DNA of 41,402 nt from Actinomycetota bacterium (lineage in GTDB: Bacteria; Actinomycetota; Coriobacteriia; Anaerosomatales; JAUXNU01), in assembly GCA_030682655.1 (NCBI GenBank), contig JAUXNU010000003.1:1-41402 (forward strand). Reading direction: 5' to 3'. Positions 194 to 18,879 of the stretch are shown here, in pieces. Numbering within the stretch: position 1 is the first letter of the stretch; each line of letters starts with the position of its first letter. Under the pieces are notes generated by a model, which saw only the letters and a list, made by a program, of their open reading frames with translations, did not search any database and was not told where the DNA came from. The translations under genes and the position numbers were made by a program.

Positions 194-370
194 CTAGTCC
201 ATCGAGATGGACTCGTTGGGGCAGGAGTCGACGCAGATGCCGCACTCGGTGCAGTCCTCAGGGCGAGCCAGAATAGCTACGTCTTCGAGGTCATAGCAGC
301 TGGTCGGGCACTCATCCACGCAGATGCCACAGGCAGTGCAGAGGTTCGAATCAACGACGGGAACGGCCAT
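194..370 (-). CDS. 2x[4Fe-4S] ferredoxin
   Basis: This 58-residue ferredoxin is a soluble cytoplasmic electron carrier. It has two classical cluster motifs of the form CxxCxxCxxxCP, CTACGICVDECP and CTECGICVDSCP, and almost nothing else, which is the usual bacterial 2[4Fe-4S] clostridial-type size. The ATG at 370 is preferred because GAAAGGAC lies at a good distance upstream; an in-frame extension to 412 has no ribosome-binding site. It appears to be a single-gene unit closed by the hairpin at 145-170. The redox partner cannot be read from the sequence; hydrogenase and dehydrogenase genes elsewhere in the window are only possible partners. Confidence 0.93.
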   Translation of the reverse strand: MAVPVVDSNLCTACGICVDECPTSCYDLEDVAILARPEDCTECGICVDSCPNESISMD

Positions 371-442: not shown

Positions 443-2017
443 CTACCGCGCCTTGTCGGCGACCTCTGACGGACTCCAGAAGCAGAACGGATACGTGCGG
501 TCAGTCAGCACCTCGGCCATTTGGCGCTGGCCATCGAGTCTCGCGAGCTCCTCGCTCAGTTGATTCGCAAGGGGTGCCAGAACCTCGACAAGCTCCGCGT
601 TGACCTCGCGAATGCGCCGCCCTAGCGCCTTCTTGTCCGCACCGTCAACAGCGATTTCCGTGACCAGCTGCTGCTTCTCGAATGCCAGTGCCTGCGCGTG
701 GTTGCGCTCCTCGGCCGTGTCGAATTCCACCTCGCCGAGCATCGTATCGGGATTGTGATCGAGCCGATTCAGCTCTTGTCGCAGATCGGCGACCTCTTCC
801 TCGGTCACCAGATGCGCACCGAGGGGCAGGTACATCGTCATCGACGCAACCACGTAGGGAGCAGGCTTGACGCCGTAGTACCGCAGCGCGACCCCGTCGG
901 TGACACGGTCATATCGGCCGCCCCCGACGCCGTGGATGAAGAGATCCGCCACGAACATCCTGACGAACAGCGTCAGCGCAAGAGCGCGCGGAACGAGCGT
1001 GAACTCCGCATCGCCAAGGAGAGACGCGGCGGACGCCGCGTCGGGAGGCAGAGATGCGAGCGCCAGGCCATTCGCGCGAAGCTCCAGCATGCCGTCGACC
1101 TGCCCCACACGTGCAGCGTACCTCTTGCTGCCGACAATCACCCACAGCGGCAGCTCTACTTCCGCCTCGTCGATTGCGAGGTCCGGGAAAGGTTGCACAA
1201 CCGAGCGCGTCTTGGTGGCCGTCCGGAAGTCGGCGAGTTCGGCGTTGAATGCCTCCGCAAACGCCCGGGCGTTGCAGATGATGTCGGCCGCGAAGAGCGC
1301 GAACGCCCTCGAACGCCCGACTGAAGTCACCGCAAGCTCGAGGTAGTCCGTTCCGGCGGACGCCTCATAGCGTCTGCGAGCGAAGGTGACCAGCTCCGAC
1401 AGGTTCTCGGCATCGCGCATGGCGTCATGAAGGTGCCCGCAGAACTCATCGAAATGTCGCCCGACCGCGGGAGCCGGCAGAGAGGCCAGCATCCCTGATG
1501 CCGCAGTGCAGAAGTCGTCTACATGAAGGGCATCCGGAACCGGAGCGCACGCGTAGCAGGTCTCGCCATCACCGACGGCAAGGTACAGCTGGCACCTCTT
1601 GACAACCGGTCGCATACACGGCGCCGCGACTCCCAGCGTGGCGAACGTGTCGGAATCGACGACGAGGTCGAGCGCGGTAGCGCCGGTCTCGTCCGAAAAG
1701 CGCTGAAGGAGGAAGTCCTTGATCCAGACACCGGGATGATACAGCTCGGGCTGGTGACCCGTGACGACGACAAGACCCGGTTCGTCCTTCGTGGTCGCGA
1801 CCGGTACGCCAAGTCGCGCCGAGAACGCTTCGGCGTGCGCCACCAACTCCCGGCGGGCCGACAGGCGCAGCGAGGCGCCGCTGGTTCCGGCGACATCGAA
1901 GTCCCATGCCCGCACGCGCTCGCCCACCGTTCCGGCGAGCGTCGTCCACTCCTCGTACGGCGGCTGGGTGAGGAGTTCACCGTGACCGTGTGGGAGTGTC
2001 GGGCGAGTGCGGACCAT
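443..2017 (-). CDS. BshC-like protein (putative cysteine-adding thiol-synthesis enzyme)
   Basis: A protein of about 524 residues, close to the roughly 540 typical of BshC, which adds cysteine to glucosaminyl-malate in bacillithiol synthesis. Residues 86-96 read TGHQPELYHPG, resembling the BshC signature (TGQQ-x-GLF-x-GP); a Gly-rich HGVGGGRYDRVTD block lies at 360-374 and a charged, probably helical segment follows. The gene begins about 5 bp after the stop of the BshB-like deacetylase, so the two are translationally coupled, and this pairing is the main support for the call. The start is set at ATG 2017; a GTG one codon upstream is equally possible, and the frame extends to 2110 inside the upstream gene. 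Similarity to true BshC is distant, so it could be a related ligase for another thiol. Confidence 0.6.
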   Translation of the reverse strand: MVRTRPTLPHGHGELLTQPPYEEWTTLAGTVGERVRAWDFDVAGTSGASLRLSARRELVAHAEAFSARLGVPVATTKDEPGLVVVTGHQPELYHPGVWIKDFLLQRFSDETGATALDLVVDSDTFATLGVAAPCMRPVVKRCQLYLAVGDGETCYACAPVPDALHVDDFCTAASGMLASLPAPAVGRHFDEFCGHLHDAMRDAENLSELVTFARRRYEASAGTDYLELAVTSVGRSRAFALFAADIICNARAFAEAFNAELADFRTATKTRSVVQPFPDLAIDEAEVELPLWVIVGSKRYAARVGQVDGMLELRANGLALASLPPDAASAASLLGDAEFTLVPRALALTLFVRMFVADLFIHGVGGGRYDRVTDGVALRYYGVKPAPYVVASMTMYLPLGAHLVTEEEVADLRQELNRLDHNPDTMLGEVEFDTAEERNHAQALAFEKQQLVTEIAVDGADKKALGRRIREVNAELVEVLAPLANQLSEELARLDGQRQMAEVLTDRTYPFCFWSPSEVADKAR

Positions 2018-2022
2018 CACGC

Positions 2023-2706
2023 CTACACCAGATCCGAAAAGCCGCGCAGCCCGATCGGCTCGTCCGAGAAGAAGGGCTCGCCAGCCTCGGATCGGATCAT
2101 CGTGCCCCACATGCGCGCCATCTGTTCCATCATCGGGACCACGTTCGCATTCCCCGGATTCGCCGAGAATTGCGACTCATAGGCAGCAAGCGCCTCGAGT
2201 TTGACGGGGAGCTCCTTGGCCACCTCGATGATGAACGACGGCTCGCGCACCAGCCGCATGTGAACGGCCATGTACTGGAAGACCCTTGAGGGGTAGTGGG
2301 GCTCTCCGATCATGTCGGTCTTGGTGAACTTCGCGTAGAAGCGCGCCGCACGAGCGATGCTGCTGGCCGCGATGTGGTCGGGGTGTGCGTCCTCGGGGAA
2401 GGGCACGAACATCGTGTCGGGTCGGAGCTCCCGCAATACGCCGGCGAGCTCCGTGCGCGCTGCGACAGTGTCCATCAGATAACGATTCGGCCCGGAAAGG
2501 GTTCTGCGCTGCGCTGCGCCAAGGATCTCCGCCGCACGCGCAGACTCGATCGCCCGGGTCTCGCGACTGCCATGCGGAGTAGGTTCGCCGTCGGTCAGGT
2601 CGACGATCGCCACGCTCAACCCCGAGCGAACCATCTTCACGATCGTGGCACCCATCCCGATCTCCACGTCATCGGGATGTGCTCCGATGCAAACGACATC
2701 GACCAT
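2023..2706 (-). CDS. LmbE/PIG-L family deacetylase, BshB1-like
   Basis: A 227-residue zinc-dependent N-acetylglucosaminyl deacetylase of the LmbE/PIG-L family, which includes BshB (bacillithiol), MshB (mycothiol) and PIG-L. The N-terminal metal-binding motif AHPDD is at residues 9-13, and a second histidine motif, PEDAHPDH, is present near residue 105. Overall spacing and the C-terminal EPFFSDEP segment resemble BshB1, which deacetylates GlcNAc-malate. The ATG at 2706 has a strong GGAGGAGG ribosome-binding site and lies 2 bp from the glycosyltransferase stop. It sits between that gene and the BshC-like gene, arguing for a thiol or glycoconjugate pathway. The substrate is inferred from context. 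Confidence 0.85.
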   Translation of the reverse strand: MVDVVCIGAHPDDVEIGMGATIVKMVRSGLSVAIVDLTDGEPTPHGSRETRAIESARAAEILGAAQRRTLSGPNRYLMDTVAARTELAGVLRELRPDTMFVPFPEDAHPDHIAASSIARAARFYAKFTKTDMIGEPHYPSRVFQYMAVHMRLVREPSFIIEVAKELPVKLEALAAYESQFSANPGNANVVPMMEQMARMWGTMIRSEAGEPFFSDEPIGLRGFSDLV

Positions 2707-2708
2707 CG

Positions 2709-3404
2709 TCAGTCCTCCTCCAGGGCCGCACGCCACACGCGCATATAGTACGCGAGGCGGACGTCCGGGTTGTCGAGCGCCTCTCCGAAAGAACGATCGT
2801 GATCGTGGTAGATGCGTTCGACCGCGACTTCTCGAATGTGAAGTCCGGCACGATATGCCTTGGCCCAAAGCTCCAGCGGCATCGCATATCCGGGCTCACG
2901 CAGCTCGATGCAGTCCAAGGCCCGGAGCCGATAAGCTTTGAAGCCGCAGAACGCATCGGTGAGGCTCCAGCCGGTAGTCCGGTTGATCTCCCTCGTCACC
3001 TTCAGATTGACGGCGCGCCGGTCGGGAGTCGGAGCGCCCACTGCGGCGCTCTCGGGCAAGTACCTGCTGCCAGAGACGATGTCGCCGCCCTCTGAGAGCG
3101 CCTCGAGGAACTCCGCGATGTGCTTCGGCTCATGCTGGCCATCGCAGTCCATCGTGACGAGACGATCGATGCCTCGTGCATGGCTCACCGCGAAACCCTC
3201 GGAAAGCGCCCTGCCGTATCCGAGGTTGGCGGGGTGCGCGATCACGGTGACGTCGTCACGTGCCGCGAGCAGCACCGACGTGCGATCTGTGGACCCGTCA
3301 TCGACAACGATCACTTCGCCGTCAAAGCGGCTGCGCACCGCATCGAGTACGGCGCACACGGTCTCGGCTTCGTTGTACACGGGCAGAAGAACGGCATCCG
3401 CCAT
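2709..3404 (-). CDS. GT2 family glycosyltransferase
   Basis: A 231-residue GT-A fold glycosyltransferase of family 2, dolichyl-phosphate-mannose-synthase-like. It transfers a sugar from a nucleotide donor to a lipid or small acceptor. It has the VVDDGSTD nucleotide-binding motif (residues 34-40), the metal-binding DxD (Asp86-Cys-Asp88 in MDCDGQ), and a GSRY segment. No C-terminal membrane helices are visible. The ATG at 3404 has AGGGAG upstream; an earlier Met at 3428 is not supported. It is first in the tight unit with the BshB- and BshC-like genes. It is not BshA, which is a retaining GT4 enzyme, so its role in thiol synthesis is uncertain. Confidence 0.85.
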   Translation of the reverse strand: MADAVLLPVYNEAETVCAVLDAVRSRFDGEVIVVDDGSTDRTSVLLAARDDVTVIAHPANLGYGRALSEGFAVSHARGIDRLVTMDCDGQHEPKHIAEFLEALSEGGDIVSGSRYLPESAAVGAPTPDRRAVNLKVTREINRTTGWSLTDAFCGFKAYRLRALDCIELREPGYAMPLELWAKAYRAGLHIREVAVERIYHDHDRSFGEALDNPDVRLAYYMRVWRAALEED

Positions 3405-3448
3405 CGAGAAGCTCCCTGTCGCCACCACCTTCGAGCACGGCCTTGAGT

Positions 3449-3874
3449 CTACTCGACCTCGACGATGTCGAACGAGGTGCGCACGTTCACCTGTGGCCCA
3501 AGCATGCCCTTCACAGAGCAGTACTTCTCCTCGGACAGTTCGATCGAACGGCGCACTGCCTCCTCGGTCACGCCTACGCCCGTGACCACGTAGCGAACGT
3601 GGATGTCCGTGTATAGGTGGGGGAACTCCTCTTCACGCTGCACCGCTTCTACGACCATCTCGAATGAACGCACATCCTGGCGCTTCTTCTCGAGAATGGA
3701 GATTACGTCCATGCCGGTGCAACCAGCGAGCGCATAGAGAACGAGTTCGACTGGGCGCGCTCCCGTGCCCTCACCCTTGTAGTCGGAACTGGAGTCCATG
3801 ACAATCCCGTGTCCGGCCTCGTCCCAGCCCACAAACTGGCGGTTTCCGCCCCAACGCACGTGGACAGTGTCCAT
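3449..3874 (-). CDS. OsmC family peroxiredoxin-like protein
   Basis: A 141-residue OsmC/Ohr-fold protein. This family reduces organic hydroperoxides with two active cysteines. Cys52 lies in the ELVLYALAGCTGMD motif and Cys119 in EEKYCSV, the expected positions. The arrangement and length are closer to the general OsmC/YhfA group than to Ohr. A strong AAGGAGG lies upstream of ATG 3874. The gene precedes the glycosyltransferase/BshB/BshC cluster on the same strand with a gap of about 45 bp, consistent with a thiol-redox operon. The physiological reductant is unknown. Confidence 0.88.
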   Translation of the reverse strand: MDTVHVRWGGNRQFVGWDEAGHGIVMDSSSDYKGEGTGARPVELVLYALAGCTGMDVISILEKKRQDVRSFEMVVEAVQREEEFPHLYTDIHVRYVVTGVGVTEEAVRRSIELSEEKYCSVKGMLGPQVNVRTSFDIVEVE

Positions 3875-3956: not shown

Positions 3957-5642
3957 TCAGATCTTGCGCCCAACCATCTGCGCGAGTTCGCGGGGACTCA
4001 TGGCCTTGCCGACAGCCTCCTCGAACGTCACCTTGCCAGCCTGCAGCAGGGTCTTGAGGTGCTGGTCAAGCGTCTGCATGCCCAAGGACGCGCCGCCTTG
4101 GATGATCGTCGCCATCTGATGCGTCTTGCCCTCGCGGATGAGATTCCCGATTGCAGGTATGCCTAGCATGACCTCCATTGCCATCACACGGCTGCGGCCG
4201 TCTGTCGAGCGCAACAGGACCTGTGAGAGAACGCCCTCGAGCGTACCGGACAGCTGCATGCGAACCTGCTGCTGCTGGTGCGGCGGGAAGACATCGATGA
4301 TGCGGTCGATCGTTGCGGGGCCTCCGGTCGTGTGCAGTGTGGCGAGAACGAGGTGCCCGGTCTCGGCTGCAGTGATCGCGGCGCCGATCGTCTCCAGATC
4401 CCGCATCTCGCCGACAAGTATGACGTCAGGATCCTGGCGCAGCACGCGCTTGAGCGCAGATGCGAACGAATGGGTGTCCTCGCCCACCTCACGCTGGTTG
4501 ACGTAGGCCTTCTTGTTCTTGTGCATGAACTCGATCGGATCCTCGAGCGTGATGATGTGCAGGGCCCTGGTTTCGTTGATGTGGTTGATCATGGCCGCAA
4601 GCGTGGTCGACTTGCCCGACCCCGTCGGTCCGGTCACAAGCACCAGACCGCGCGGACGCTCCGCGAGATACCGGGCAACCTTGGGGAGGCCGAGCTCCTC
4701 GAGTGTGGGGATCTTGATGGGAATCACCCGGAAGACCGCTCCCATCGAGTTGCGCTGCTGGAAGACATTCGCGCGAAAGCGCGAGACGCCAGGGATGCTG
4801 TAGGCGAAGTCCAATTCCAGCTCGGTCTCAAACCTGCGTCGCTGGTCCTCGGACAGAAGGTTGAGGATCATCTCCATCGTATCCCGCGGCATGAGCACCC
4901 GATGGTTCTCCACGGGTACGATTTCTCCGCGTAGACGGACGCCGGGGGGGCTCCCGACCGTGATATGCAGGTCAGAACCCCCACGCTCGATCATGAGTCG
5001 CAGCAGATCGTCGATATGAGGAGAGTCGTCCGTCCTGGGAGCTTCAGCGCCGACCCCCAAGCCGGAAGGGGGGGCGGGCGTTTCTGCGGGCGACGATACC
5101 GGTGATGGGGTGGCCGGACCGGGCGGTGAGGCCTGCGGCACACCGTACGCTCCCGCCGCAGGCATTTCTGCCTCGGGCGCACCCGCAGATGCAACCACCT
5201 GTTGCGGTACGCCGTAGCCCATCGACGCAGGAGACGCATCGGGGTCCGGACCTGAGCCGTTGTCGGACAGCCCGGCAAGTGACAGCACCTTGCCCACTAG
5301 AGCGGCCACGGAACCACCGGAAGCCATGTGGGCAGAAGCGCCTGCCTGGCGTGCACGCATCGCAGACGTCTCGCTTGGCTGCAGTGAGATGATGACCACG
5401 GCAACCTCACCGCCATCCGGGGATGCCTTGATCTGCTGCGTGAGCGAGTATCCGTCCATCCCTTCGAGCTCACCGTCGACCACGACGACATCTGGCTTTT
5501 CGACGCCCATCATGCCAAGCGCACGCGGCGCCGACAGGGCACTGATGACACCCATCTTCGCGCCGGATTCCGAAAGCATCGTCTTGATCTGTTCGACCAG
5601 GTCGGCATCCTCATGGACGATCAGCAGTTTCTTCTCGGCCAC
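3957..5642 (-). CDS. receiver domain-PilT ATPase fusion (type IV pilus retraction-like)
   Basis: A 561-residue protein with three parts. Residues 1-125 are a CheY-like receiver (acidic pair E11/D12, candidate phospho-acceptor D56 in VVVDGELEGMDG). It lacks the usual conserved Lys near the end (AHMAS instead of a K-P motif), so phosphorylation signalling may be lost. Residues of about 135-225 form a Pro/Ala/Gly-rich linker with repeated YGVPQ. The rest is a complete PilT/secretion ATPase: Walker A GPTGSGKST, the DPDVILVGEMRD Walker B, the HLVLATLHTT His box, and AIGNLIREGKTHQM, a variant of the PilT-type AIRNLIRE motif. PilT hexamers power pilus retraction at the inner membrane. The GTG at 5642 is chosen because GGGAGGG sits 8 nt upstream. 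CRP-type sites lie at 5687-5724. Confidence 0.9.
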   Translation of the reverse strand: MAEKKLLIVHEDADLVEQIKTMLSESGAKMGVISALSAPRALGMMGVEKPDVVVVDGELEGMDGYSLTQQIKASPDGGEVAVVIISLQPSETSAMRARQAGASAHMASGGSVAALVGKVLSLAGLSDNGSGPDPDASPASMGYGVPQQVVASAGAPEAEMPAAGAYGVPQASPPGPATPSPVSSPAETPAPPSGLGVGAEAPRTDDSPHIDDLLRLMIERGGSDLHITVGSPPGVRLRGEIVPVENHRVLMPRDTMEMILNLLSEDQRRRFETELELDFAYSIPGVSRFRANVFQQRNSMGAVFRVIPIKIPTLEELGLPKVARYLAERPRGLVLVTGPTGSGKSTTLAAMINHINETRALHIITLEDPIEFMHKNKKAYVNQREVGEDTHSFASALKRVLRQDPDVILVGEMRDLETIGAAITAAETGHLVLATLHTTGGPATIDRIIDVFPPHQQQQVRMQLSGTLEGVLSQVLLRSTDGRSRVMAMEVMLGIPAIGNLIREGKTHQMATIIQGGASLGMQTLDQHLKTLLQAGKVTFEEAVGKAMSPRELAQMVGRKI

Positions 5643-5686
5643 AGATTGACCCTCCCAAGCGAATCGGACTGACTCCCCGTACCGCC

Positions 5687-5844: not shown

Positions 5845-7149
5845 ATGAGACTGCGTATCGAAGGACTCGCATACGGGGGTGAAGGGGTCGCCCACCTCGA
5901 GACGGGCCAGGCGGCCTTTGTTGCCGGCTCTTGCCCTGGAGATCTCGTCGATGTCGAGATCACGTCGAGCCACAAACGTCTCGTCAAGGCGAAAGTGACC
6001 GCCGTCATTGAAGCGTCGCCGCAACGCGTGGAAGCTCCGTGCCCCTACTTTGGCGAATGCGGGGGCTGTCAGTGGCAGCACGTGTCCTACGGCACGCAAC
6101 TCTCTGCCAAGCGAAGCGCTGTGCGTGATGCGCTCACCCGAATCGGCAAGATCCCAGCCGAGGACCTGGTGGCCGAGTCGATCGCATCACCCGCACAATA
6201 TGGCTATCGCAACAAGATCGAACTACTTGCCGAGGAGACTCCCTCCGGCACCGTGTTGGGATTCGCGAAACTCGGCACGGTAGAACTCGTTCCCATCGAC
6301 GCGTGCATGCTGGTCGACGCTCGTGCGCAGCGCCTGCCCTCGTCACTGCGCGGCGCTCTCAGGTACGTTTCTGGCAGTCAGCAGCTTGGACTGAGCAGAG
6401 TCGGAATCCGCGTGGCTCGCAGCACGAAGGACCTCGAGGTGGCGCTGTGGACCTCCCCTGGACCGTTTCCGAGGCAGCTAGCAGCACGAACGCTGGCGCA
6501 AGGTACGGGCGCGACCAACATCGTGCGGGTCCTCACAAAGGGGCCGGCGGAACAGCGGCATGTCACGAAGGTCGAGGTCTTCTCAGGTCCGGGCGCGTGG
6601 TCCGAGCGGTTTCTCGGCCAGCGCATGCTTGTGTCTGCTCCGTCGTTCTTCCAGGTCAACACGGCCGTCGCCGAGAAGCTCGTGAAGCACGTTCTTGGCA
6701 AGATGCAGGTGGACGGGACGGATCGAGTGCTCGATCTGTTCTCCGGAGCGGGCACATTCACATTGCCGCTCGCCGAACAAGCCGGCGAGGTCGTGGCCGT
6801 CGAGTCCTCCCGGCACGCGCTGAACGATCTGCGGCGCAATCTCGAAAGCGCGCAGCTCGACGCCGTTGTCGAGCCCGGAGATGCCGCCTACGTCTTGCCT
6901 GGACTCGGCCGCTTCGACAGTGCCGTCGTCGATCCCCCTCGTACCGGACTCGGAGCACCGACCGTGCTGGCGCTTGTGAGCGCTCGTCCGCGAAGAATCG
7001 CATACGTCTCATGCGACCCGGCGACGCTAGCACGTGACGCGAAGACGCTGACCGAATCGGGCTACCGCCTTGTCGAGGCCACTCCGGTCGATCTCTTCCC
7101 GCAGACCTTCCACGTGGAGACGGTCGCGATCTTCGACCTATCGGAATAG
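5845..7149 (+). CDS. rlmD: 23S rRNA (uracil-5-)-methyltransferase, RlmD/RlmCD (RumA) family
   Basis: A 434-residue SAM-dependent enzyme of the TrmA/RumA family that makes 5-methyluridine in 23S rRNA. An N-terminal TRAM-type RNA-binding domain (about 1-58) precedes the iron-sulfur ligands Cys66, Cys72, Cys75 and Cys153. A Rossmann methyltransferase domain follows with VLDLFSGAGTFTLPLA. The catalytic cysteine is Cys390 in SCDPATLARD and the end carries FPQTFHVE. GGGAG precedes the ATG. It stands alone, divergent from the receiver-PilT gene. TrmA-family members cannot be separated by position of the target uridine from sequence alone; RlmCD is an alternative. Confidence 0.9.
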   Translation: MRLRIEGLAYGGEGVAHLETGQAAFVAGSCPGDLVDVEITSSHKRLVKAKVTAVIEASPQRVEAPCPYFGECGGCQWQHVSYGTQLSAKRSAVRDALTRIGKIPAEDLVAESIASPAQYGYRNKIELLAEETPSGTVLGFAKLGTVELVPIDACMLVDARAQRLPSSLRGALRYVSGSQQLGLSRVGIRVARSTKDLEVALWTSPGPFPRQLAARTLAQGTGATNIVRVLTKGPAEQRHVTKVEVFSGPGAWSERFLGQRMLVSAPSFFQVNTAVAEKLVKHVLGKMQVDGTDRVLDLFSGAGTFTLPLAEQAGEVVAVESSRHALNDLRRNLESAQLDAVVEPGDAAYVLPGLGRFDSAVVDPPRTGLGAPTVLALVSARPRRIAYVSCDPATLARDAKTLTESGYRLVEATPVDLFPQTFHVETVAIFDLSE

Positions 7150-7158
7150 GCTGCTGCG

Positions 7159-7386
7159 CTAGACGAGCTTGCCCACTTCCGGGAAGTCGGTGATGTAGAC
7201 ATCGTGGGTGGCGTCAGCGTGCTCCTCGGTCAGGTCCGCCCCGGCGGTGTGCATGTACTCATGCTCACCATCCCCCCACATCGCACTTTCGGTGACATCG
7301 TAGACAGTTCCCTTGTAGGCAACGTAGGCGGGATTGCCGTTCTTGCCATTGAGCTTCGCGAGATCGTCGCTGGTGAAGTCCTTCAT
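7159..7386 (-). CDS. cytochrome b5-like heme/steroid-binding domain protein
   Basis: A 75-residue single-domain protein of the cytochrome b5-like heme/steroid-binding family. The order FTSDDLAKLNGKNG, PAYVAYKGTVYDVT, W-GDGEHEYMHTAGADLT and a terminal FPEVGKLV is diagnostic. Histidines in GEHEYMH are candidate heme ligands. There is no signal peptide. It is probably a small cytoplasmic heme or redox protein, but no member of this stand-alone bacterial subfamily has a role that can be read from the sequence. The start at 7386 has GTGGAGG directly upstream. Its stop lies 9 bp from the convergent rRNA methyltransferase stop. Confidence 0.85.
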   Translation of the reverse strand: MKDFTSDDLAKLNGKNGNPAYVAYKGTVYDVTESAMWGDGEHEYMHTAGADLTEEHADATHDVYITDFPEVGKLV

Positions 7387-7500
7387 GACACCTCCACGGG
7401 CGGACCGGCTGTGGGACATCACGTATGTCCCCGACCCGACGCGCAACCTAACCAGCTGCCGTCCAAACGCTGCACCCGAGCGGGCGCAATGCGCCGGCTG

Positions 7501-7869
7501 CTAGACACGCCGTCCCAGACGGGACAACACACGAACTGCCCTGAAGAACATCGAACCGACGGCGCCCCAAAGAGCGAGCCCAACCAGATTCAGCCCCCCG
7601 GTGCCCTCGCCGCCTCCCTTGAGGACATCAGCGTACGTCACCGGAATCGGTATCGGTGTTCCGTCCACCTCTACGGTAAGCGTCGCCGCGCCCGAACCGA
7701 TCTCGATGTTTCTGAAGTCGCGCAGCGTCTGTGCCGCAAGCTGTGCTCCGCTGGCCGTGGTCACGGTGCGCGCGACGTGGACTGGTTCCGCGGCGCCCGC
7801 GACTGCAGGGCCCGCAAGTAGTACCGCACCCGCGAACGCGACGACCATCATCCATCTCGTTTTCAACAC
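7501..7869 (-). CDS. exported or membrane-anchored protein of unknown function
   Basis: I do not recognise this protein. From a GTG start (7869) with AGAAGG upstream it has 122 residues: a signal peptide (about 1-26, hydrophobic VVAFAGAVLLAG then a small-residue cleavage region), a short soluble stretch rich in Thr/Val with VDGTPIPIPVTYADVL, a Gly-rich linker, and a C-terminal hydrophobic helix (LVGLALWGAVGSMFF) followed by Arg/Lys. That arrangement fits an extracytoplasmic domain anchored by its C-terminus. A near-perfect CRP-type palindrome lies 70-85 bp upstream, next to the crp-like gene. Its role is unknown. Confidence 0.6.
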   Translation of the reverse strand: MLKTRWMMVVAFAGAVLLAGPAVAGAAEPVHVARTVTTASGAQLAAQTLRDFRNIEIGSGAATLTVEVDGTPIPIPVTYADVLKGGGEGTGGLNLVGLALWGAVGSMFFRAVRVLSRLGRRV

Positions 7870-7938
7870 AACCGCCTTCTGCCGAAGCGTTCTCCCCTCC
7901 AACACAAGGGGTTCATCGGCAGAACGAGCGGACAAGCG

Positions 7939-7954
7939 TGTGACTCGAGTCACC
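7939..7954 (-). promoter_or_regulatory. CRP/FNR-family operator
   Basis: TGTGACTCGAGTCACC matches TGTGA-N6-TCACA with one mismatch at the final base; its core GTGACTCGAGTCAC is a perfect 14-bp palindrome. It lies upstream of the exported-protein gene (start 7869) and about 100 bp downstream of the crp-like stop, so it most likely acts on the former. Confidence 0.6.
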
Positions 7955-8030
7955 GTGCACTCCACGTTCACCGATTAGCCTCGCATTCCTACCGTCTGTC
8001 CCTAAAGACGTCACAGATTCCCCACGCAAA

Positions 8031-8891: not shown

Positions 8892-11800
8892 CTACCGTTT
8901 CTCGGTGCGTATGAAGTCGACAAACAAAGGCGTCAGATGCGGTATGAGCTGCGGCAGATACGTGGGCATGAGAGAATCCATCGTCTTGGGCAGCAGATCA
9001 GGCATCAGTTCGCCCATGTCCTCGGGCATCTCGCCGATGTACTCCTCGACCTCGCGAACCATTTCCGGCATGACCTTGCCGAGGATACCCGGAGCCATCG
9101 CCGGGAACATCAGCGGCATCATCTTCTCCATCATGGCTAGGCCGCCGGGGACATGCTTCATCCCGCGCATCATCGGCGCCATCCCGACCGGCATCGCGTC
9201 CATCATCTGCGGGAAGATCCGCGTCATGAACGTCGCCATGTTCTTTGGCTCGAGCAGGATGATGAACTTCTCGAAGTAGCCCCACATGTAGTTGGCATAG
9301 TCAGTCGTCTCGGGAATGTCATAGCCAGCCGCCTCGGCAACCACCCGGGCAAGGTCATCGATCTGCAGAGGCAGGTCGTTCTTCACCACGCTATCGCGCA
9401 ACTGCACCTGGCAGCACAGGCACAGGGCAACGACCTTGTCCGCACCGGCATCGACGGCCTCCTGGAGCCGTTCCTTGCCAAGGATCGGCGCCACGGACAT
9501 CTCACCGACGAGCGTGAGCACCGAACCGCAACACAGGCCCTCCTCGCGATTGTGCTCCATCTCAACGTAGTCAACGCCCGGGATCGCCTTGAGCATATCG
9601 CGCGGCGGCTCGTAGTTGCCCTGGGCGCGACCCATATGACACGAGTCATGGAAGGTTATGCGGCCCTCGATCGGATTCTTGAGCTCGATCTTGCCCTCTG
9701 CCATAGCTTCGGCGACGAGTTCCGAGTAGTGCTTCACCTCGAAGTCGTATTCCTCACCGCGCTCGGCCGCCAGATTGGCGTAGAGCTCCTTCCACACGAG
9801 GCCGCACGCGGGACACGAGGTAACGATCGTCTTGGCGCCGCGCTTCTTGGCCTCGGCGACATTGTGCTCGAATATCTCCTCGAAAACGTCCCACTTGCCC
9901 GCTACCTTCATCGGGATGCCACAGCAGGCTTCGTCTGTGCCCATGTAGCCGATGTCGTAGCCGGAGTCCTGCAACAGGCGAACGGAAGCCTCGGCGATGT
10001 CCTTCTCGACGAAACTCGCGGTACAGCCGCCGAAGTAGAGGATGTCGGCCTTCTTGTCCCAGCCACCGTGCTCATCGGTCAGTGAGTCCTTGATGTCCTC
10101 TGGCACCCAGTCAGCACGGTGTTCGGCCTTGGCCGCCCAGATGTCCCGCTCTCCGCGAAGTGAAGCCGCCATCATCTCGAACGGCGGGAAGGTTCCGCGC
10201 TTCTCCTCGTGAACCAGCTTGCCGCGCATCTCCATCCAGTTGTGCTCGACGGGAAGCTGCAGCTGACAGCGTGTGTTGCACACCTCACAGGTCGTGCAGA
10301 CGAGGAAGGTATCGATCGCCTTGCGGTTCCATTTCTCACGACCTGCCATGACTTCGCGCAGGTATGCGTACTTCCCGCGTGGGGAGTGGCTCTCCCATCC
10401 TCGGCCGGTGTACTGCTCACATGTCGGAACGCAGTAACCGCACCGTGCACAGGCGTACGCCATGAACGCGACATCGCCCGGGATACCGCGGACGTCCCGG
10501 GAGAGATCACCGTGGTCCTTCGGGGGCCTTGCAGCATTGGCGATCGGTCGCACGAGCGACTCGAAGGCGGCTGCACTGCCCATGAGCAGGTCGATGACGC
10601 CAGAACCCAACACCTTCCCGGGGTTCATGACAGCCTTGGGATCCACCTTCGCCTTGTAGGCGGCAAGAGCTCGAACCTTGTCCGCACCAAGAACGGAATC
10701 GGCCTCACGTCGGAAGTACAGGCCTGTCGAGTAGGCCGCGCCGCCATGCTTCTTCGCGATCTTGATGACCGACAGCGACAGGGCGAAGGCGACGTTGAAC
10801 GCGAACGATCGCTCATCATGCGGAATGAAGCCAAGGAGAACGACCTTGTCTCCCTTTGAGTGCATCCCCTCGAGAATGAACGGCTGGGTGATCTTAGCGT
10901 CTATCTCGGCGAGCACGTCCGGCATCTCTGTCAGCGGTACCACTACCTCGGTCGGCACGAGCGAGGGACCGGTCCTCTTGAGCCGCATCGGTGAGAAGCG
11001 CTGCTCCCACTCGTGCTCAGCGGCCTGGGCATCGAGCTCTTCGCCGTTCCTCGCGGCGACGATGGCGGTGAGCGCCATGTCCACGGCACCGTGGCGAGAC
11101 ACCGGATACGCGATCACCGCGAGGTACTTCTCGGGGAGACTCGGCTCGTAGTGTTCATGCGACAACTCATACGGATGTCCGTGCCTGTGCGGGAGCTCCT
11201 TCTTCAGCCGGATGGATTCCGGATTGAGAAAGGTGATCGACCAGATCGGCAGATGCTGCTCTGAAATCGCCCGGAGCGTCGCGCCGAGAGAATAGGCATC
11301 CGGAAAGGCGATGACGCGATGTACCTCGTCCTCATGCTGTCGGATACGCACTGTGAGCTCGGTGATGATACCGGTGATGCCCTCGGCATCAGCGACGAGA
11401 TCGTTCAGCTCGTCACCCTCGAATACCCTGACCTCACCGGAGGGCAGGACAACGCGTGCCGAAACGACGTTCTCCTTGAACGTGCCGTACTCGTAAGATC
11501 CAAAGCCCGCTCCACCCTGAGCGAGCCAACCCGCAGCCCCTGAACTCGGGGCCGAGGAGGGATACAACCTCAGGCCCAGGCCATCTTTGTTGAGCTCGCG
11601 CTCGATCTGCTCCCATATCGCCGAAGCCTGAACCGTTACGGTCAACTCCTTGTGGTCGACCGCAAGTACGCGGTGCATGCCCGACATGTCGACGACAACC
11701 GCACCCGTCGGCGGCAGAACGCCTCCGTAGCCCGATGTCGCCCAACCTCGTGGGACGAGCTTGATGCCCTCGCGACTGGCAAGCTTCACCAGGTCGACGA

Positions 11801-11984
11801 TCTGGGCCTCGTCTCGGGGCCTGACCACCGCACCGGCAACGCCCGCAGGGACAAAGGGCTTGACGAGGGACGGCATCGCCCCGATGTCGAACGAGTACAT
11901 CTTCCGTTCGACAAGGTCCGTACGCACCCGGTCTCCGAAGATCTCACGGAGCTGATGCTCGATGCGTTCGCTGACCGCTGCCAT
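8892..11984 (-). CDS. fused FAD-binding oxidoreductase/Fe-S protein (GlcD-GlcF-like) with methionine-rich tail
   Basis: A 1030-residue protein combining a FAD-linked dehydrogenase with an iron-sulfur partner. Residues of about 45-215 are a PCMH-type FAD domain and about 220-460 the FAD-oxidase C domain. Two [4Fe-4S] motifs follow (Cys512/515/518/522 and Cys563/566/569/573). Then come two CCG-type cysteine-rich regions (Cys654, Cys687-688, Cys724/727, and Cys782, Cys818-819, Cys855/857/858), as in GlcF, LldE and HdrD. Such enzymes oxidise D-2-hydroxy acids and pass electrons to quinone or other carriers; the substrate here is unknown. Residues 916-1010 form an unusual tail with about 22 Met and many Pro. 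The start at 11984 has GGAAGAGG upstream; a longer frame reaches 12044. Confidence 0.88.
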   Translation of the reverse strand: MAAVSERIEHQLREIFGDRVRTDLVERKMYSFDIGAMPSLVKPFVPAGVAGAVVRPRDEAQIVDLVKLASREGIKLVPRGWATSGYGGVLPPTGAVVVDMSGMHRVLAVDHKELTVTVQASAIWEQIERELNKDGLGLRLYPSSAPSSGAAGWLAQGGAGFGSYEYGTFKENVVSARVVLPSGEVRVFEGDELNDLVADAEGITGIITELTVRIRQHEDEVHRVIAFPDAYSLGATLRAISEQHLPIWSITFLNPESIRLKKELPHRHGHPYELSHEHYEPSLPEKYLAVIAYPVSRHGAVDMALTAIVAARNGEELDAQAAEHEWEQRFSPMRLKRTGPSLVPTEVVVPLTEMPDVLAEIDAKITQPFILEGMHSKGDKVVLLGFIPHDERSFAFNVAFALSLSVIKIAKKHGGAAYSTGLYFRREADSVLGADKVRALAAYKAKVDPKAVMNPGKVLGSGVIDLLMGSAAAFESLVRPIANAARPPKDHGDLSRDVRGIPGDVAFMAYACARCGYCVPTCEQYTGRGWESHSPRGKYAYLREVMAGREKWNRKAIDTFLVCTTCEVCNTRCQLQLPVEHNWMEMRGKLVHEEKRGTFPPFEMMAASLRGERDIWAAKAEHRADWVPEDIKDSLTDEHGGWDKKADILYFGGCTASFVEKDIAEASVRLLQDSGYDIGYMGTDEACCGIPMKVAGKWDVFEEIFEHNVAEAKKRGAKTIVTSCPACGLVWKELYANLAAERGEEYDFEVKHYSELVAEAMAEGKIELKNPIEGRITFHDSCHMGRAQGNYEPPRDMLKAIPGVDYVEMEHNREEGLCCGSVLTLVGEMSVAPILGKERLQEAVDAGADKVVALCLCCQVQLRDSVVKNDLPLQIDDLARVVAEAAGYDIPETTDYANYMWGYFEKFIILLEPKNMATFMTRIFPQMMDAMPVGMAPMMRGMKHVPGGLAMMEKMMPLMFPAMAPGILGKVMPEMVREVEEYIGEMPEDMGELMPDLLPKTMDSLMPTYLPQLIPHLTPLFVDFIRTEKR

Positions 11985-12089
11985 CTGTTCCTCTTCCTTC
12001 CATGCGTCAAAGGAGCTTGTGAAGCGCTTCTCTTGGGCTACCACAGCAATTCATATGCCCAGGGGGGTATTCATGTTTCATAACGCAGC

Positions 12090-16608: not shown

Positions 16609-17283
16609 ATGGCGCATCCCGCACACTACCGTGAAGCACACCCGACTGTCTTTGTTATCACGCACTGGCTCAACCTCATCGCCATAGTGTCGCTCGCCTT
16701 CTCGGGCTTCTACATCCACTACCCGTTCTTCCCAGGGTTCATGGGCGTAGCCCGCGGCATGCACTTCTTCTTCATGTACGTGCTCGTCATCAACCTGACG
16801 TTCCGCATCCTCGCAGCCTTCTTCGAGAAGGATGCAGTCATGCTGGGAACGCGCGAGGTTGACACGGACATCAAGAACTGGCTGCCGCAAGAGGCGAACC
16901 GCCACCAGCTCGGTGCATGGCTCAAGTACTACCTGTTCATGAAGAAGGACCACCCGCTCGGAGCCAAGTACGGCGTTCTCCAGAAGATCGCGTACCTGGC
17001 CACTGTGCCGCTGACCTTCTTCATGTTCTACACCGGCCTGTGCATCTATGCACCGACGATGGACTCACAGGTATTCTCGTCGGCATGGATCGGCGGCCCG
17101 ATGAACATGCGCATCCTGCACTACTTCCTGATGTGGGTGTTCCTTATCTTCACCGCGATCCACGCCTATCTGGCCAACGTCGAGGGCTTTGCGCCTTCCT
17201 CGCTCATCTTCGCGCGCAAGGAAAGCGAGGGCCTGCACTTCGACCCGAAGACCGGCAAGGTCACAGGCGGTTCCTCGCACTAG
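16609..17283 (+). CDS. hydrogenase cytochrome b subunit
   Basis: A 224-residue integral membrane b-type cytochrome of the HyaC/HydC family, which passes electrons from the periplasmic hydrogenase to quinone. Four or more hydrophobic helices are visible (for example around residues 14-37, 47-71, 126-146 and 165-190), with conserved histidines in THWLNL, ARGMHFFF, LHYFLMW and AIHAYLA as heme ligands. The ATG follows the read-through TAG of the large subunit with no gap, and GGTGAGG serves as ribosome-binding site. This supports co-translation with the full-length large subunit. A stable hairpin follows at 17314-17341. Confidence 0.93.
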   Translation: MAHPAHYREAHPTVFVITHWLNLIAIVSLAFSGFYIHYPFFPGFMGVARGMHFFFMYVLVINLTFRILAAFFEKDAVMLGTREVDTDIKNWLPQEANRHQLGAWLKYYLFMKKDHPLGAKYGVLQKIAYLATVPLTFFMFYTGLCIYAPTMDSQVFSSAWIGGPMNMRILHYFLMWVFLIFTAIHAYLANVEGFAPSSLIFARKESEGLHFDPKTGKVTGGSSH

Positions 17284-17313
17284 GGGTGCCTCTGGTCAAC
17301 CATGTTTGGGCGT

Positions 17314-17341
17314 GCAGGGCCCCGGGAAACCGGGGCCCTGC
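17314..17341 (+). terminator. stable hairpin after the hydrogenase structural genes
   Basis: A perfect 12-bp stem (GCAGGGCCCCGG / CCGGGGCCCTGC) closed by a GAAA loop lies 30 bp past the cytochrome b stop. No T-tract follows, so it may act as a weak terminator or as an mRNA 3' stabiliser separating the structural genes from the radical SAM gene. Confidence 0.55.
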
Positions 17342-17450
17342 CACTATCGGCATGGCTATGCTTGGCAGGAGTTGAGCCGAAGACGTTGAATGGACATACG
17401 GGGTCACCTGGGCCTGTGGCGTCGGAAACGGCGCGAACCGCGTTGGGGGT

Positions 17451-17466
17451 GCGACCGCAAGGTCGC
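17451..17466 (+). other. GCAA-tetraloop hairpin in the leader of the radical SAM gene
   Basis: GCGACC-GCAA-GGTCGC forms a perfect 6-bp stem with a GNRA loop in the 273-bp stretch between cytochrome b and the radical SAM gene, which otherwise holds the hairpin at 17314-17341 and no gene. It may be part of a structured 5' leader; no known riboswitch class was recognised. Confidence 0.35.
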
Positions 17467-17556
17467 GCGCAGGGATCACGGTTCACGGTGCAGCGCATTC
17501 TGGGGCCTCGCGGATAGCCGGCAGCTAGCCAGATACGGCGCAACGAAAGGGACGAC

Positions 17557-18879
17557 ATGCTCTCCGAGCGCGCGATTACCGCTGCCCTGCGTGTCCTGAA
17601 CAAGAACTACCTTGCACAGACTCCGACGGACCTCGATTCGCTCCCCGCACCCGTGCCCGGCAGGGGCTATGTCCTCTATGCGCACGTACCGTTCTGCGAG
17701 CGACTATGCCTGTACTGCTCCTTCAACCGGTTCTTGTTTCAGGAAGACCGGGCGCGAGGGTACTTCAAGCATCTGCGCGACGAGATGCGCATGACCGCCC
17801 ACATGGGCTACGACTTCCCGTCGCTCTACATCGGTGGCGGCACCCCGACAATCCTTCTCGATGAGCTATGCGAAACAATCGATCTGGCCACAAGCCTGTT
17901 CTCCATTCGCGAAGTCTCATGCGAGACCAGTCCCAACCACCTGGGTCCAGAATTGGTCGAACGCCTGTCTGAGCGGGTACAGCGCCTGTCAGTCGGCGTC
18001 CAGAGCTTCGACGACGGCCTGCTACGCACCATGGACCGCTATGAGAAGTACGGAAGCGGTGAGGATCTCTTCGAGCTGATCGCATCAGTCGCGGGCAAGT
18101 TCCAGTCGCTCAACGTGGACATGATCTTCAACTTCCCGAGCCAGACCGAGCAGATGTTGGCGCGCGACATCATGATGCTCAAGGCCACGGGAGCGAACCA
18201 GACGACGTTCTACCCGCTCATGGCGTCACCGAAGACCCGACTTGAGCTGCAACGTGCGGTGGGGTCCATCGATTTCAAGCGCGAAGCCTACTACCACCAG
18301 CTCATCGCGCACACGCTCTCCGACCAGTTCGTCCCGACGTCGGCGTGGACGTACTCGCGCGATGTCGGCTCAATGATCGACGAGTACATCGTGGACTATG
18401 AAGAGTACGTCGGGCTCGGCTCCGGTGCGCTCTCCTTCCTTGACGGCCGCATCTACGGGAACACCTTCTCGCTGCGTCAGTACGGCGAGGCGATCTCCTC
18501 GGGACGCATGTCCGTTGCGAACCAGGGTAAGCCCTACGGCCGAATGGCCCGGATGCGCTATCGCTTCGTCACCGACCTCTTCGGGCTCAGGCTCGACAAG
18601 GTACGGTTCGAGCACGATTTCGGCGTTCCGGTCGAGCGCGGACTCTGGGCGGAGCTCGGATTTATGCACGCCGCCGGAGGCATCGCCCGTCACGACGATG
18701 TCGAGATCACGCTCACCGAGAAGGGCCGCTACCTGCTGATGGTCATGATGCGCGAGACACTCGCGAGTTCGAACGACCATCGCGACCAGGCACGCGAGTC
18801 ATTGCCACTCGACGAGCGCATGCTCCTGCTCGAGGGCGAATCATGCGTGGCCCCGGCCACACGGCTCGCGGCAGGGTAG
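17557..18879 (+). CDS. HemN/HemW-family radical SAM protein
   Basis: A 440-residue radical SAM enzyme. The cluster motif is HVPFCERLCLYCSF (Cys47, Cys51, Cys54). Then come the GGGTPT SAM-binding motif, ETSPNHL, SVGVQSF and a C-terminal HemN-like domain, characteristic of the coproporphyrinogen III oxidase/HemW family. The fourth cysteine of true HemN (CxxxCxxCxC) is replaced by Phe, so oxygen-independent coproporphyrinogen oxidase activity is doubtful and a heme chaperone (HemW) or other role is possible. AAAGGGA precedes ATG 17557. It lies between the cytochrome b gene and the hydrogenase protease gene. A role in heme supply to the cytochrome is an attractive inference only. Confidence 0.82.
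   Translation: MLSERAITAALRVLNKNYLAQTPTDLDSLPAPVPGRGYVLYAHVPFCERLCLYCSFNRFLFQEDRARGYFKHLRDEMRMTAHMGYDFPSLYIGGGTPTILLDELCETIDLATSLFSIREVSCETSPNHLGPELVERLSERVQRLSVGVQSFDDGLLRTMDRYEKYGSGEDLFELIASVAGKFQSLNVDMIFNFPSQTEQMLARDIMMLKATGANQTTFYPLMASPKTRLELQRAVGSIDFKREAYYHQLIAHTLSDQFVPTSAWTYSRDVGSMIDEYIVDYEEYVGLGSGALSFLDGRIYGNTFSLRQYGEAISSGRMSVANQGKPYGRMARMRYRFVTDLFGLRLDKVRFEHDFGVPVERGLWAELGFMHAAGGIARHDDVEITLTEKGRYLLMVMMRETLASSNDHRDQARESLPLDERMLLLEGESCVAPATRLAAG

Follow-up and report, generated by a model that had tools for sequence, protein, structure and literature searches.

Five genes lie on the minus strand in the first 3.9 kb of the window (the whole 41,402-nucleotide stretch of DNA analysed here), and they follow one another in the order OsmC, GT2, BshB, ligase and ferredoxin:

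3449-3874, minus strand: OsmC-family gene (PF02566, 66.2 bits)
2709-3428, minus strand: GT2 glycosyltransferase (PF00535, 92.6 bits)
2023-2706, minus strand: BshB1-type zinc deacetylase, 227 aa (TIGR04001, 185.5 bits)
443-2017, minus strand: BshC-fold ligase candidate, 524 aa, starting at ATG 2017 (predicted structure and hhalign)
194-370, minus strand: 2[4Fe-4S] ferredoxin (PF00037, 48.6 bits)

An initial annotation had proposed that two of these genes encode a BshB1-like deacetylase and a divergent BshC-like protein, preceded by OsmC and GT2 genes in an apparently actinobacterial genome. Both occur as open reading frames exactly where it had placed them (443-2017, minus strand, 524 aa, and 2023-2706, minus strand, 227 aa), the OsmC (PF02566) and GT2 (PF00535) genes lie directly upstream, and the host is indeed actinobacterial, belonging to the Anaerosomatales of the Coriobacteriia. 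Only 2 bases separate the GT2 and deacetylase genes, and 5 bases separate the deacetylase gene from that for the 524-aa protein, which starts at the same residue as its homologues. The GT2 gene starts at GTG 3428 or, judged by the starts of its homologues, probably at ATG 3404. Scans for promoters and terminators found none, and there was no match when the GT2-BshB-ligase trio was compared with defence families or the ligase with plasmids. In the order, as here, the cassette is adjoined by a gene for a PilT-like ATPase with an N-terminal response-regulator receiver domain (3957-5645, minus strand). Genes for a small cytochrome-b5-like domain protein (7159-7446, minus strand) and for a 1050-aa FAD-oxidase / Fe-S / CCG-domain protein (8892-12044, minus strand) also recur near the cassette in relatives.

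Distribution and linkage of the gene set

Relatives of the ligase were found in 65 of 69 Anaerosomatales genomes; no other genome covered by that first genome search had one. The order OsmC-GT2-BshB-ligase is conserved in all 20 extended Anaerosomatales loci, and a ferredoxin gene, a putative associate of the pathway, lies downstream of the ligase in 20 of 20. OsmC stands beside the cassette in this order only and is absent from that position in other phyla. A scan of species genomes yielded at least 558 confirmed ligase relatives, of which 80 were kept, and relatives were listed in Armatimonadota, ANGP1, Bacillota (including Limnochordaceae), Nitrospinota, Nitrospirota and Planctomycetota. 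The gene set is thus present in an actinobacterial genome, as first supposed, but it is no oddity of a single actinobacterium, being widespread across phyla.

In most non-planctomycete loci the GT2, BshB and ligase genes are contiguous, often with short (4-base) overlaps. In Planctomycetota the GT2 and ligase genes are usually adjacent and BshB lies elsewhere, and in Scalindua the ligase gene is next to neither. Within the planctomycete sample 21 of 119 genomes gave a ligase match, some of them weak and divergent; three (G547, G578 and G639) gave weak matches (E about 1e-22) in two pieces, representing a more divergent BshC-like branch. Clustering of the neighbourhoods revealed no fourth gene common to loci across phyla, and the remaining neighbour clusters occur only within the order or in small groups, some of them resembling wrong-strand frames. 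We read the GT2, BshB and BshC-like genes as a biosynthetic module complete in itself.

The ligase candidate and its relationship to BshC

Searches of the 443-2017 protein against Pfam, including the BshC family PF10079, and against NCBIfam returned no match, and about 46 relatives from several phyla likewise showed no consistent match to either collection; nothing in the window's own genome scores over the PF10079 cut-off. The profile check that the initial annotation had suggested for this protein therefore failed at the level of sequence. Taken by itself, that failure would sink the BshC assignment, yet it was overturned by structure. An AlphaFold (AF2) model built from an alignment of 42 relatives (mean pLDDT 93.2, pTM 0.87) has Bacillus subtilis BshC, 4wbd, as its closest PDB entry (E 3e-14 in Foldseek), and VIA-align superimposes the two end to end over 450 residues with Z 26.8, 10% identity and an rmsd of 6.1, a value that in a predicted model points to domain movement or divergence. 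The second-best fold is the class I lysyl-tRNA synthetase 1irx (Z 20.0, 271 residues aligned, rmsd 3.2), followed by other class I synthetases and by MshC (Z about 10.5). BshC alone is matched over the full length, coiled coil included, and the model has both hallmarks of the BshC fold, a class I synthetase-like core and a C-terminal coiled coil (about residues 406-504).

Comparison of profiles with hhalign gave a similar picture. An alignment of 46 relatives matched one of 40 canonical BshCs with a probability of 89.7% and an E value of 1.9e-6 over 339 columns, set against controls (reversed, column-shuffled and unrelated profiles) that gave E values of 0.09 or worse. Significance was reached only after the alignments had been widened on both sides, an earlier comparison of an order-only alignment with six canonical BshCs of one family having given a probability of 1%. 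Coiled-coil and helical matches from a profile search of solved-structure sequences were set aside as helical bias. Together, the structural match to 4wbd and the profile-profile match uphold the proposed divergent BshC-like identity, and show 443-2017 to encode a distant homologue of BshC whose motifs have changed.

The altered motifs are TGHQPxLxHPGVWxK (residues 86-100), VDxD (120-123) and DLFIHGxGGxxYD (358-370). In the hhalign pairing GHQP...HPGVWxK falls on the canonical GQQxG...GP...K, VDxD on the canonical EDxD region and DLFIHGxGGxxYD on the canonical QD...GPGExxY, so that the canonical GQQxG...GP and QD...GPGE motifs are missing and are replaced by GHQP...HPGVW and ADLFIHGxGG. In the model, the first core strand (83-88) and a helix (95-111) flank the HPGV stretch, at a junction that we take to be the position of the HIGH box in class I synthetases, and the HPGV stretch may accordingly be the equivalent of that box. 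Several cysteines at about residues 136-173 (PC, RC, CYAC, FC) are common to the order and absent in other phyla; they possibly form a metal site.

The deacetylase and the glycosyltransferase

The 2023-2706 protein narrowly exceeds the BshB1 equivalog cut-off (TIGR04001, 185.5 versus 182.5 bits), bearing out the proposal of a BshB1-like deacetylase beside the BshC-like gene, and falls far below the cut-offs for MshB (39.5 versus 224) and BshB2. Its zinc-binding and catalytic residues (HPDD, HPDH) are intact and are conserved in 28-29 of 29 sequences. The subfamily carries the signature GEPTP / PNR / DAHPDH. It departs from canonical BshB at Arg109, the position of which is occupied by Ala107 in 2023-2706: the arginine is kept in none of about 89 partner BshBs, a count in which some sequences appear twice and in which the replacement is mostly Ala, compared with 30 of 33 canonical partners. 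Changing Arg109 to Lys lowers BshB activity, and the contact it makes is important for GlcNAc-malate (PMC4101496). In a tree of 76 BshBs, the operon-encoded and unlinked forms separate from 31 BshBs linked to canonical BshC with branch support of 100/99; picking the unlinked rows by their GEPTP motif introduces some circularity, though these rows are also the best BshB1 matches of their genomes. Of 19 genomes in which BshB is not adjacent, 16 have a BshB1 over cut-off at another place, and it carries the GEPTP...NR signature of the operon form. One locus (L110, about 7085-7976) has its BshB gene broken across two frames, through sequencing error or decay.

The match to PF00535 agrees with the description of the glycosyltransferase as a GT2 and not a GT4 BshA. 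Its AF2 model (pLDDT 93.7) has a GT-A fold with DxD and GSRY and is closest to dolichyl-phosphate mannose (DPM) synthase (5mlz, Z 24.9, 26% identity) and ArnC, the next fold match being the soluble glucosyl-3-phosphoglycerate synthase (Z 21); the enzyme itself is soluble and short. DDGS, DCDxQHEP, GSRY and R137 are invariant motifs. Both Arg122 and Arg137 are invariant and align with phosphate-binding arginines of DPM synthase, and from this alignment the acceptor is probably phosphate- or carboxylate-bearing. The best curated family, matched by 36 of 36 members, is the GalNAc-transferring (HexNAc) PpgS, but the window's GT2 scores far below the PpgS cut-off (100 versus 370 bits) and likewise far below every other curated equivalog cut-off. 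It thus shares the GT-A fold, DxD, GSRY and a second phosphate-binding arginine with DPM-synthase-like enzymes (PfDPMS, ArnC, PpgS), and differs from them in having its own C-terminal signature, RxFxxxLDD...YY, and in the adjacency of its gene to a BshC-like gene in most phyla.

A candidate thiol pathway and its alternatives

Thiol redox buffers are known in many bacteria, among them glutathione, bacillithiol and mycothiol, and the last two are made to a common plan of sugar transfer, deacetylation and class I synthetase-like ligation. The module could follow the same plan. With a nucleotide sugar as donor, the GT2 would place N-acetylglucosamine, or a similar HexNAc, on an acceptor that probably carries a phosphate or carboxylate; the BshB-type zinc enzyme would strip the acetyl group, leaving a free glucosamine amine; and the BshC-fold enzyme would use that amine as the attachment point for an amino acid, probably cysteine. 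Such steps would yield a cysteinyl-glucosaminide thiol akin to bacillithiol and mycothiol with a different aglycone. The linkage, the homologies, the folds, the intact GT2 and BshB catalytic residues and the absence over cut-off of BshA and, in the window's own genome, MshC were computed; the substrates, the order of the steps, cysteine and a thiol function are what we infer, cysteine from the BshC relationship only.

Like the bacillithiol pathway (BshA-BshB1-BshC), the module has a BshB1-type deacetylase followed by a BshC-fold ligase, and in canonical loci, too, bshB adjoins bshC. It differs in having a GT2 for the GT4, no BshA over cut-off, a ligase outside PF10079, a replaced Arg109 in BshB, and relatives without YpdA or bacilliredoxin over cut-off. 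No gene exceeds the BshA cut-off (TIGR03999) in any of 99 related genomes, the window's own included, or in 38 of 39 distant bearers, the exception being a Scalindua genome; several of the genomes are incomplete. YpdA and bacilliredoxin were each found over cut-off in 0 of the 99 relatives, and canonical BshC in 0 of the 39 distant bearers of the divergent set. The mycothiol pathway (MshA-MshB-MshC-MshD) has the same plan, with a PIG-L/LmbE deacetylation, but the module's deacetylase is of the BshB1 type and its ligase is nearer to BshC than to MshC. Mycothiol was discounted for the window's genome, in which no gene exceeds the MshC cut-off (TIGR03447): the best match reaches 313 of 485.1 bits, as expected for a CysRS.

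Two side observations concern bacillithiol genes proper. A Scalindua genome (G528, L137) has on contig 133, at 16751-17881, a BshA-like gene just over cut-off (282 versus 273.7 bits); that genome, which also carries the divergent ligase and lacks canonical BshC over cut-off, perhaps has a hybrid pathway. Among 396 Actinomycetota genomes sampled, 25 carry a canonical BshC that scores over the PF10079 cut-off, and these 25 belong to a single family (f26; L051-L077), where a DRHPDH-type BshB lies beside the BshC gene; canonical bacillithiol genes are thus apparently present inside a phylum usually credited with mycothiol. A survey predicts bacillithiol in Chlorobi, Bacteroidetes, Acidobacteria, Firmicutes and Deinococcus-Thermus, and mycothiol only in Actinobacteria (PMC6282198). 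The words thiol, mycothiol, bacillithiol, glutathione and OsmC are absent from the description of Anaerosomatales (PMC9686372), and no BshC-like gene set or unidentified thiol in these phyla appeared in the literature searched, bioRxiv and most subscription journals being outside its scope.

Three other products were weighed. The kinship of the GT2 to DPM synthase and ArnC, by sequence and structure, and its retention of their phosphate-binding arginines Arg122 and Arg137 would suit a lipid-linked product: polyprenyl-phosphate-GlcNAc from the GT2 would lose its acetyl group to BshB and be aminoacylated on the glucosamine by the BshC-like enzyme, and the end product would be a modified lipid or a glycan of the envelope, not a soluble thiol. 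We consider this unlikely: the GT2 is soluble, short and also close to a soluble synthase (Z 21), the partner BshB groups with BshB1 of a soluble pathway, and no envelope or flippase gene is common to the loci across phyla. Bacillithiol itself (Cys-GlcN-malate), made with the GT2 in place of BshA, would agree with the BshB1 equivalog match and the BshC fold of the ligase, but is improbable as the product given the loss of Arg109 from all of the roughly 89 partner BshBs, at a position where a Lys change already lowers activity (PMC4101496), the lack of YpdA or bacilliredoxin over cut-off, the different fold classes of GT4 BshA and the GT2, and ligase motifs unlike those of canonical BshC; bacillithiol proper was set aside on BshA absence and Arg109 loss.

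The ligase might instead attach some other amino acid to glucosamine in place of cysteine, yielding an aminoacyl-glucosaminide without thiol function. Its core is closer to class I LysRS (1irx, Z 20.0) than to MshC (Z about 10.5) and its motifs depart from BshC, but its sole full-length match, coiled coil included, is BshC, its partner deacetylase is of the BshB1 type and an OsmC peroxidase-type gene is linked to it in the order, all of which makes such a product rather improbable.

Given a first enzyme of another family, a lost BshB contact and changed ligase motifs, the simplest reading is a pathway of the same plan with a different aglycone. We counted in support the linkage of the trio across phyla, the BshB tree (100/99), the intact zinc site and the intact donor site of the GT2, and against it the resemblance of the ligase fold to class I LysRS (Z 20), the differences from canonical BshC motifs, the proximity of the GT2 to polyprenyl-phosphate glycosyltransferases, the lack of bacillithiol-recycling enzymes over cut-off and the unlinked ligase of Scalindua. 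Overall, we give a probability of about 0.58 to a pathway of the bacillithiol or mycothiol kind that starts with another enzyme, probably builds on an aglycone other than malate and most likely leads to an undescribed cysteinyl-glucosaminide thiol. The original suggestion, a low-molecular-weight thiol pathway that is either bacillithiol-like or new, stands and gains strength from the BshC fold, the BshB1-type partner, conservation across phyla, the absence of MshC from the genome and of BshA over cut-off; bacillithiol itself is not supported, given the absence over cut-off of BshA, YpdA and bacilliredoxin from the 99 relatives and the replacement of Arg109, and a thiol product is suggested by homology. 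More tentatively, and at somewhat less than even odds, the GT2, the BshB variant and the BshC variant may define a further class of low-molecular-weight thiol in several phyla, the aglycone being something other than malate or inositol, probably phosphate- or carboxylate-bearing, and the glucosaminide beta-linked if the GT2 inverts as DPM synthase does.

A conserved gene set whose ligase belongs to no curated family is a direct and testable candidate. To our knowledge the terminal BshC step has resisted biochemical study, and a divergent BshC homologue offers a second way into its mechanism. The current BshB1 model assigns the module's BshB to bacillithiol; GEPTP / PNR / DAHPDH in BshB together with TGHQPxLxHPGVW in the ligase could let annotators tell the module from bacillithiol. 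The bearers, which include subsurface Coriobacteriia, Armatimonadota, Nitrospinota and anammox and other planctomycetes, may make an undescribed protective thiol.
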